Positions 23,203 through 24,004 of a stretch of 39,211 nt of DNA are shown piece by piece. This stretch comes from Nitrososphaeraceae archaeon (GTDB lineage: Archaea; Thermoproteota; Nitrososphaeria; Nitrososphaerales; Nitrosopumilaceae): contig JAICOU010000007.1 in the NCBI GenBank assembly GCA_025930495.1, positions 1 to 39,211 on the forward strand, written 5' to 3'. Every line of letters begins with the position of its first letter. Positions within the stretch are counted from its first letter, which is position 1. The translations under genes and the position numbers were made by a program. Below the pieces are notes generated by a model that worked only from the letters and a program-made list of their open reading frames with translations, did not search any database and was not told the origin of the DNA.

Positions 23203-23506
23203 AAGTATTTCAAAAAAAATGATACAACGAGGAAACAATGGAAATTCAAAACGAATTTTGAGTGCTTCCACCCTTTTCGTCTCTTTTCCTTACTGTCTTC
23301 CAGCTGTGACAGTTCCTCGTCGAATATGCTACAACTGGATGATATTAAAGTGATTTGGCATAAATTCATTACATTTGACAAGAGAAAGATAAGATATTCA
23401 AATAAATGTAAATATAATACATTAGAGTAATTATTTACAATTTTTAATAGAAAATATATCAAAAACTACATTGAATAAAGATCAATATCATAAATTTTCA
23501 GGTTAA
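23203..23506. other. Interval without a clear gene
   Basis: Overlapping open frames on both strands look like chance products of Lys/Phe-rich DNA. The one visible structure is an inverted repeat ACTGTC/GACAGT around a 10-nt loop at 23292-23313. Nothing else is seen. Confidence 0.4.
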
Positions 23507-23517
23507 TTTTTAAATAG
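23507..23517 (+). promoter_or_regulatory. TATA box of the structured RNA
   Basis: TTTTTAAATAG on the plus strand, centred about 28 bp before 23540, where a hairpin-led structured segment begins. Confidence 0.6.
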
Positions 23518-23539
23518 TTAAACTTCTTATACAGACTAT

Positions 23540-23660
23540 GTCGATAAGTGTTTCGACTGAATAAACTGCGTGACCCTGCAGAACGAAAAAGGCAATCAGG
23601 CGTTTAACGTCCTGACCACGAGAGGAAATCTCTCTATGTTCTGCAATTAAGGGTTACGCC
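23540..23660 (+). ncRNA. Candidate structured non-coding RNA, family unknown
   Basis: A GC-rich island in AT-rich DNA that folds convincingly by eye. The 5' end has a hairpin GTCGA/TCGAC (23540-23557). A long closing helix pairs GCGTGACCCT (23568-23577) with AGGGTTACGC (23650-23659), nine Watson-Crick pairs plus one G-U that fixes the plus strand. It continues, after a 5-nt bulge AATTA, as GCAGAAC (23578-23584) with GTTCTGC (23638-23644). Inside are two hairpins: TCAGG/CCTGA (23596-23615) and GAGAG/CTCTC with loop GAAAT (23620-23634), making a three-way junction. A TATA box 28 bp upstream and a T-run right after the helix give it its own transcription unit. It does not match 5S, SRP, RNase P or tRNA as I know them. 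Confidence 0.7.
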
Positions 23661-23670
23661 TTTTTGTTTT
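23661..23670 (+). terminator. T-run terminator of the structured RNA
   Basis: TTTTTGTTTT follows the closing helix of the RNA by one base, typical of archaeal termination at T-rich sequence. Confidence 0.55.
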
Positions 23671-23850
23671 CTAGAATCAAAATCATATCATCTCAAAAGG
23701 ACATAATGATGTATTGTAGCTCAAGATTCTAATCTACAAGATGCATGTTTGTAATCCTAGCAAAGACAAGAATCTCAGAATAATTGAAAGGTTTTCCTAA
23801 AAATAATAATCAAAGATCTATTTTTATGCTAGAAACGCGTAATAGTATTT

Positions 23851-23952
23851 GGAAAGCTGACACAATTTCCTATTGTCAAATGTTGGCATCAGTTTGCTGG
23901 CCTTTGCTTACTGCAGGGCTATGCAAAGGTTGATCCGCAAAAGTCAGCTTCC
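23851..23952. ncRNA. Second candidate structured RNA segment
   Basis: Another GC-elevated segment with nested pairing. An outer helix pairs GGAAAGCTGAC (23851-23861) with GTCAGCTTCC (23943-23952), with one bulged A. Inside are a hairpin ACAAT/ATTGT (23862-23876) and a longer arm GG-C-ATCA (23885-23891) with TGATCC (23931-23936), topped by CCTTTGC/GCAAAGG (23901-23907/23923-23929). The pairs are all Watson-Crick, so the strand is not fixed. A plus-strand TATA-like CTATTTTTAT lies at 23818-23827; on the minus strand it would be in the 3' region of the MFS gene. No T-run follows. No known RNA family recognised. Confidence 0.5.
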
Positions 23953-24004
23953 CACCTTTACAATGAGATTTCTAAATTAGTACAATTCAAAAAATAAAAT
24001 ACAA

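Follow-up and report, generated by a model that had tools for sequence, protein, structure and literature searches.

The segment at positions 23507-23670 of the window, by which we mean the whole stretch of 39,211 nucleotides that was analysed, raises the question whether it encodes an RNA that has so far escaped cataloguing and, if so, what such an RNA might do. A first-pass annotation had described it as a self-contained transcription unit for an unknown structured RNA, with a TATA box, a 5' hairpin, an interrupted closing helix of 17 bp, a three-way junction with two hairpins and a T-run right after the helix. The features considered here, all on the plus strand, are the following.

23505-23516, plus strand: promoter, consisting of a BRE-like stretch and the TATA box TTAAATA (23510-23516), seen in the sequence
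23538-23564, plus strand: mini-ORF of 9 codons, ATG TCG ATA AGT GTT TCG ACT GAA TAA (MSISVSTE, stop)
23540-23557, plus strand: predicted 5' hairpin GUCGA/UCGAC (23540-23544/23553-23557), lying inside the mini-ORF
23568-23576/23651-23659, plus strand: closing helix P1, 9 bp, GCGTGACCC/GGGTTACGC
23578-23584/23638-23644, plus strand: helix P2, 7 bp, GCAGAAC/GTTCTGC
23596-23615, plus strand: bulged junction hairpin HPa, TCAGGCGT...ACG-T-CCTGA, which closes the three-way junction together with HPb
23620-23634, plus strand: junction hairpin HPb, GAGAG-GAAAT-CTCTC, identified by invariant columns, loop tally and covariation
23660-23670, plus strand: U-tract (TTTTTGTTTT), with T-runs at 23661-23665 and 23667-23670, seen in the sequence
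23586-23593/23658-23665, plus strand: tentative alternative helix AAAAAGGC/GCCTTTTT, based on complementarity of the junction strand with the 3' tail

Folding of positions 23535-23670 as RNA gave a minimum free energy of −49.6 kcal/mol, against −28.4 ± 3.6 kcal/mol for 200 dinucleotide shuffles (z −5.97), none of which folded equally well. P1 is stacked on P2 via a one-sided internal loop. Most of what had been read from the letters was recovered at the positions given above, namely the TATA box, the 5' hairpin, the three-way junction with its two hairpins and the T-runs directly after the helix, as well as a G-U pair in the closing helix, which is G23572-U23655 in P1 and is replaced in relatives by G-C, A-U or U-A. 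The interrupted closing helix is also present, but its two parts add up to 16 pairs instead of 17. The RNA gene stands alone and is about 130 nt long, the U-tract likely representing the 3' end of the transcript in the window's copy. A leader hairpin is predicted for almost every one of 62 divergent representatives (mean z −2.45). For the alternative helix, pairing within copies exceeds permuted pairing and one subgroup carries an AAUGGC/GCCAUU variant; it is limited to the genus of the window and one sister genus and is missing in distant genera, and it was rejected as a defining feature of the family.

No covariance model of Rfam 15 matched over the element at its gathering score, a relaxed E value produced only two chance-level matches on the opposite strand (E 3-4), and 19 divergent loci searched against Rfam likewise gave no match over the element, so that the earlier remark that no known archaeal RNA fits the segment holds. 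Archaeal SRP RNA is ruled out, since the SRP RNA of this genome was found once elsewhere (G000:C93), and ARAGORN detects no tRNA or tmRNA in the window. A C/D or H/ACA guide RNA was dismissed on the absence of an Rfam match, the one-sided P1-P2 loop and a 3' end that consists of GCC and the U-tract, without ACA. A hammerhead-like core, a kink-turn and Shine-Dalgarno mimicry in HPb were rejected by eye on the ground that the needed bases are not conserved. A viral scan for the HPb-P2 pattern returned two matches only, both unrelated, and none in phage records. The literature searched, papers on Nitrosopumilus included, contains no description of this RNA. The element is a genuine RNA family that was previously uncatalogued.

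BLASTN searches of the genome and 60 relatives located the RNA in 22 of the 61 genomes, mostly twice in each; the genome of the window has its second copy at G000:C50:4706-4803. A covariance model of the core matched in 76 of 250 genomes of the order. When the model was rebuilt from 68 diverse copies and run on 350 genomes of the class, matches were obtained in 176 genomes, which all belong to the 193 sampled members of the window's own family, whereas the 157 other genomes gave none. The copy number per genome is mostly two, the copies being paralogues. No relatives outside the family were detected with the improved model on genomes of other orders, also when laxer filters were used, and when 40 relatives grouped around another family were searched with laxer settings, the sole match came from the one genome among them that belongs to the window's family. 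Within these genomes the RNA is restricted to a single archaeal family, which we infer from the first-pass annotation and the archaeal 16S rRNA to be the Nitrosopumilaceae. Two genera of this family (g5 and g11) showed no match in the sampled genomes, some of which are of small size; losses, or divergence beyond the reach of the model, are possible. In one genome the RNA occurs as a tandem pair (L161, 1501-1586 and 1807-1894, in G304:C184) with the copies about 220 bases apart. Six further loci (L031, L040, L043, L110, L185 and L190) hold extra or weak copies, several of them with a degraded mini-ORF or a poor structure score, which suggests birth and decay of paralogues.

As judged from the homologous sequences, the structure of the RNA is under selection, and the helices display the extensive compensatory change that the proposed fold calls for. 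When 68 copies were aligned to the model, standard pairs made up 97.1% of the cells, and 24 of the 29 pairs, with 200 cells, have changed on both sides; none of 500 shuffles did as well, and a shift of the partners by 1-3 columns lowered the paired cells to 36-60%. A second set of 72 copies was 93.9% paired, with 25 pairs and 285 cells changed on both sides. For P1, 98-99% of the cells are paired and 6-7 of the 9 pairs have changed on both sides, for P2 these values are 94-98% and 6-7 of 7, and in HPa all 8 pairs have changed on both sides in relatives. Since these alignments had been fitted to the model, an alignment-free control was run, in which the two ends of P1 from the same copy paired at a mean of −17.6 kcal/mol, as compared to −13.4 kcal/mol for ends exchanged between copies, with none of 200 permutations equally low. 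The arms of HPb gave the same outcome, and the cross-pairing figure for P2 was left out of this control as it was distorted by an out-of-range value. The best-conserved part is HPb, with a pentaloop that reads GAAAU in 57 copies and GUAAU in 45 and of which the terminal G and U are nearly invariant. The junction strand differs strongly between genera, and no single-stranded seed is conserved throughout the family.

What the first-pass annotation overlooked is the mini-ORF that encloses the 5' hairpin. An equivalent frame is present in 134 of 139 copies, with a length of 8 (17 copies), 9 (112) or 10 codons (5). It starts with ATG (122), GTG (7) or TTG (5), and ends with TAA (77), TGA (30) or TAG (27), the stop codon being separated from P1 by 3, 4 or 5 nt in 129 of the 134 frames and by 0 nt in the other 5. 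The level expected by chance was obtained by shuffling the stretch between the TATA box and P1; about 3.5% of the shuffled leaders contain such a frame. In these statistics, which treat sequence relatedness only roughly, the frame occurs in 102 of 107 representatives with less than 90% identity (3.7 expected from shuffles) and in 42 of 45 representatives with less than 65% identity (1.7 expected). The pattern had been suggested by the first 68 copies; another 71 copies were gathered with a model that excluded this stretch, and 69 of these carry the mini-ORF. The frame is lacking in L031, L040, L110, L185 and L190, several of which are weak or extra copies, and most of them look like decaying or surplus paralogues. 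A structured RNA with its own promoter and a mini-ORF in front is thus an architecture that we hold to be very probable, and on the sequence pattern it is also quite probable that the mini-ORF is translated. The description as a self-contained unit for an unknown structured RNA stands as far as the promoter, the covarying helices and the absence of an Rfam relative are concerned, but in view of the mini-ORF the unit is not purely non-coding.

All 134 ORF-bearing copies have a TATA-like heptamer before the start codon (at least 6 of the 7 letters of TTAAATA, with the exact heptamer in most), at a distance of 22 nt in 103 copies and of 19-23 nt throughout. As a yardstick for the start site, the SRP RNA genes of nine relatives were read by inspection. 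In these genes the TATA-like box ends some 20-22 nt before the 5' end, the same distance as that between the TATA box and the ATG of the mini-ORF, and the transcript should therefore be leaderless, with its first base at the ATG or a few bases from it. Some archaea have many leaderless messages and others few. In Haloferax volcanii, they account for 72% of the protein-coding transcripts (PMC4983044). At the other end of the gene, a run of four T residues occurs within 20 nt in 99 of 140 copies and directly after P1 (within the first seven bases) in 49 of 140. Intrinsic termination by P1 and the T-run, as proposed earlier, agrees with the strong T-run in the window's copy, but the run is weak in many relatives, and such a terminator is therefore not a family-wide property.

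Whether the peptide or the act of translation is maintained can be approached from the substitution pattern. Among 37 independent close pairs, the differences comprise 21 synonymous, 77 non-synonymous and 1 stop-creating change, as compared to 24.1, 70.7 and 4.2 when the same substitutions were placed at random, and they are distributed over codon positions 1, 2 and 3 as 32, 40 and 27. Hence, these pairs show no excess of synonymous change and no purifying selection on the peptide, with the proviso that the hairpin within the ORF also constrains the sequence and could mask weak peptide selection. New stops are below the random level, with 27 of 500 placements as low. Over the first 24 nt, the 111 distinct ORF-bearing leaders are all open in frame 0 by construction, the set having been chosen for its ORF, so that the numbers open in the other frames (33 and 77) offer a descriptive contrast only. 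The lack of a synonymous preference together with the paucity of new stops indicates that openness of the frame is kept rather than the peptide, and with a peptide that is not conserved, the act of translation is seemingly what is selected. This suggests that translation itself matters and that the peptide is probably a by-product. A frame whose start, length and stop are conserved while its peptide is not would constitute an unusually clear case of selection for translating a small RNA.

The genomic setting bears on how the RNA may act. In many genera one copy occupies a shared locus, flanked by an SDR dehydrogenase gene and, on the opposite side, by genes for a hypothetical protein, TFB and a Snf7-like protein. 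The hypothetical protein has no Pfam match, and its gene is convergent and ends 2-5 nt from P1 in most cases. As seen for this locus at L029 (1509-1606 and flanks), the neighbour gene on the opposite strand ends inside the terminator of the RNA, so the 3' ends of both transcripts may overlap. The loci of the other copies, that of the window included, vary between genera, the window's copy being flanked by small ORFs and a convergent gene for an MFS transporter. A mobile element or repeat is ruled out by the presence of one copy at the same locus across many genera, while duplication does occur, the non-shared copies differing in place between genera. No common co-oriented downstream gene, as a cis-acting riboswitch or attenuator leader would have, was found next to the copies, and in one group that was checked the co-oriented gene carries its own TATA-like box. 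With no shared downstream gene to regulate in cis, the RNA is best seen as trans-acting.

These observations can be combined into a model in which the RNA is both a leaderless mini-mRNA and a structured RNA, gated by translation and acting in trans; we give this model as a whole about even chances. The transcript would start at an AUG, or at most some 2 nt from it, and a ribosome would initiate leaderlessly, read 8-10 codons through the small hairpin and terminate 3-5 nt short of P1. When a stop codon is in the A site, about ten bases beyond it lie under the ribosome. At the end of the mini-ORF the ribosome would thus cover the greater part of the 5' strand of P1 and open this helix, and with the stop codon so close, translation and closure of P1 should exclude each other. 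The structured part, consisting of P1, P2 and the three-way junction, would in this way be gated by translation, the nearly invariant loop of HPb would be a likely candidate site for binding of a protein or RNA, and the molecule would act in trans as a translation-responsive regulator. The gating step draws on general knowledge of ribosome footprints and is put forward tentatively, with the odds somewhat against it. The same reservation applies to the more specific idea that the activity of the RNA depends on whether its leaderless nine-codon frame is translated, irrespective of the peptide, and that the RNA serves as a sensor of ribosome initiation or termination, which is possible, but hardly to be called probable.

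Other readings of the same data place the weight differently. The locus could be a micropeptide gene, with a peptide of 8-10 residues as its product and the structured RNA as no more than a 3' untranslated region. The complete frame in nearly all copies and the loose pattern M-x-K-D-[IV]-[IK]-[SP]-[IT]-[DA], which recurs in several genera, would fit, but the 134 ORFs encode 91 different peptides, synonymous changes are not in excess, substitutions fall evenly on all codon positions, and the structured part is conserved far better than the peptide. The peptide as product was rejected as the main reading on the substitution pattern, and we regard a micropeptide gene as very unlikely. It is slightly less likely still that the RNA is not translated at all but is an ordinary structured non-coding RNA, in which the triplets read as start and stop serve as initiator motifs or as motifs at the RNA level. 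The 5' hairpin does constrain the stretch by itself, and an Inr-like base preference at the start site is plausible, but this would leave it unexplained why three start and three stop codons interchange at one place and why shuffled leaders reproduce the pattern so rarely.

Two further explanations accept that ribosomes engage the RNA. In one, it is a base-pairing or dual-function small RNA that pairs with mRNAs in trans, the mini-ORF only recruiting ribosomes that protect the RNA or tune its stability. Its own promoter, the trans-type setting and the paralogous copies agree with this, as does the existence in Haloferax of ribosome-occupied small RNAs that lack evident coding potential (PMC12482152). 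The variation of the junction strand between genera and the lack of a family-wide seed speak against it, and we consider it unlikely. From sequence, two properties of dual-function small RNAs, an own promoter and an internal ORF, appear to be present, and a third, a conserved functional peptide, was not found. In the other explanation the ribosome itself is the target: the leaderless AUG would load the RNA, after which the junction and HPb would act on the ribosome in parking, hibernation or control of recycling. This would account for start and stop codons that are conserved without a peptide, for a stop codon so near P1 that a ribosome cannot terminate without running into the structure, and for HPb being the best-conserved part; we rate it as rather improbable, somewhat below base pairing. 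The translation-gated, trans-acting RNA described above is the reading that we prefer.

Of the known RNAs found, rnTrpL of Sinorhizobium meliloti comes nearest; this small RNA is derived from an attenuator, acts in trans and starts at the ATG of the 14-aa leader peptide ORF encoding peTrpL (PMC7298713). The likeness is one of layout, a short stand-alone RNA with the start codon of a tiny ORF at its 5' end (here predicted from the TATA spacing) followed by structure, and does not extend to origin or peptide conservation. The S. meliloti RNA is bacterial, stems from the trp attenuator ahead of trpE(G) and encodes a functional peptide, whereas the present RNA has a three-way junction, no common downstream gene, no Trp codons and an unconserved peptide. 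Regulatory codons of the rnTrpL type were sought by inspection, and none of the 91 peptides contains Trp or shares a repeated codon with the others. Another comparison is with the ribosome-associated small RNAs of H. volcanii, some of them without coding potential and some with small ORFs (PMC12482152). These resemble the present RNA in being archaeal and possibly engaged by ribosomes, but the passages considered show no shared structure or conserved mini-ORF, whereas the present family is defined by a covarying fold and a conserved ORF. Tan1, a 229-nt ncRNA that is abundant in marine group II Euryarchaeota, is likewise an uncatalogued structured RNA of marine archaea, but it belongs to another phylum and has another length (PMC5069720). 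Archaeal SRP RNA (RF01857), a stable RNA, shares with the present RNA an own promoter and equal TATA spacing, and differs in having 317 model positions, another fold and a gene of its own elsewhere in this genome.

The covariation and the presence in some nine tenths of the sampled genomes of the family, mostly in duplicate, imply that the RNA must have an important role in these organisms. If the preferred model is true, a translation-switched RNA would be conserved throughout a dominant group of ammonia-oxidising archaea.

Two other elements of the window were noted. About 180 nt downstream of the RNA lies a second conserved intergenic element (23836-23965), which is apparently structured (fold z −3.2) and probably represents a separate RNA. 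It has no Rfam match, its BLASTN matches are in the genus of the window and in one genome of another genus, and its closing helix, GGAAAGCTGAC/GTCAGCTTCC, shows one compensatory change, in L139. On the minus strand, positions 1-930 of the window carry a partial archaeal 16S rRNA gene that is cut by the contig end and provides the sole Rfam match of the window.
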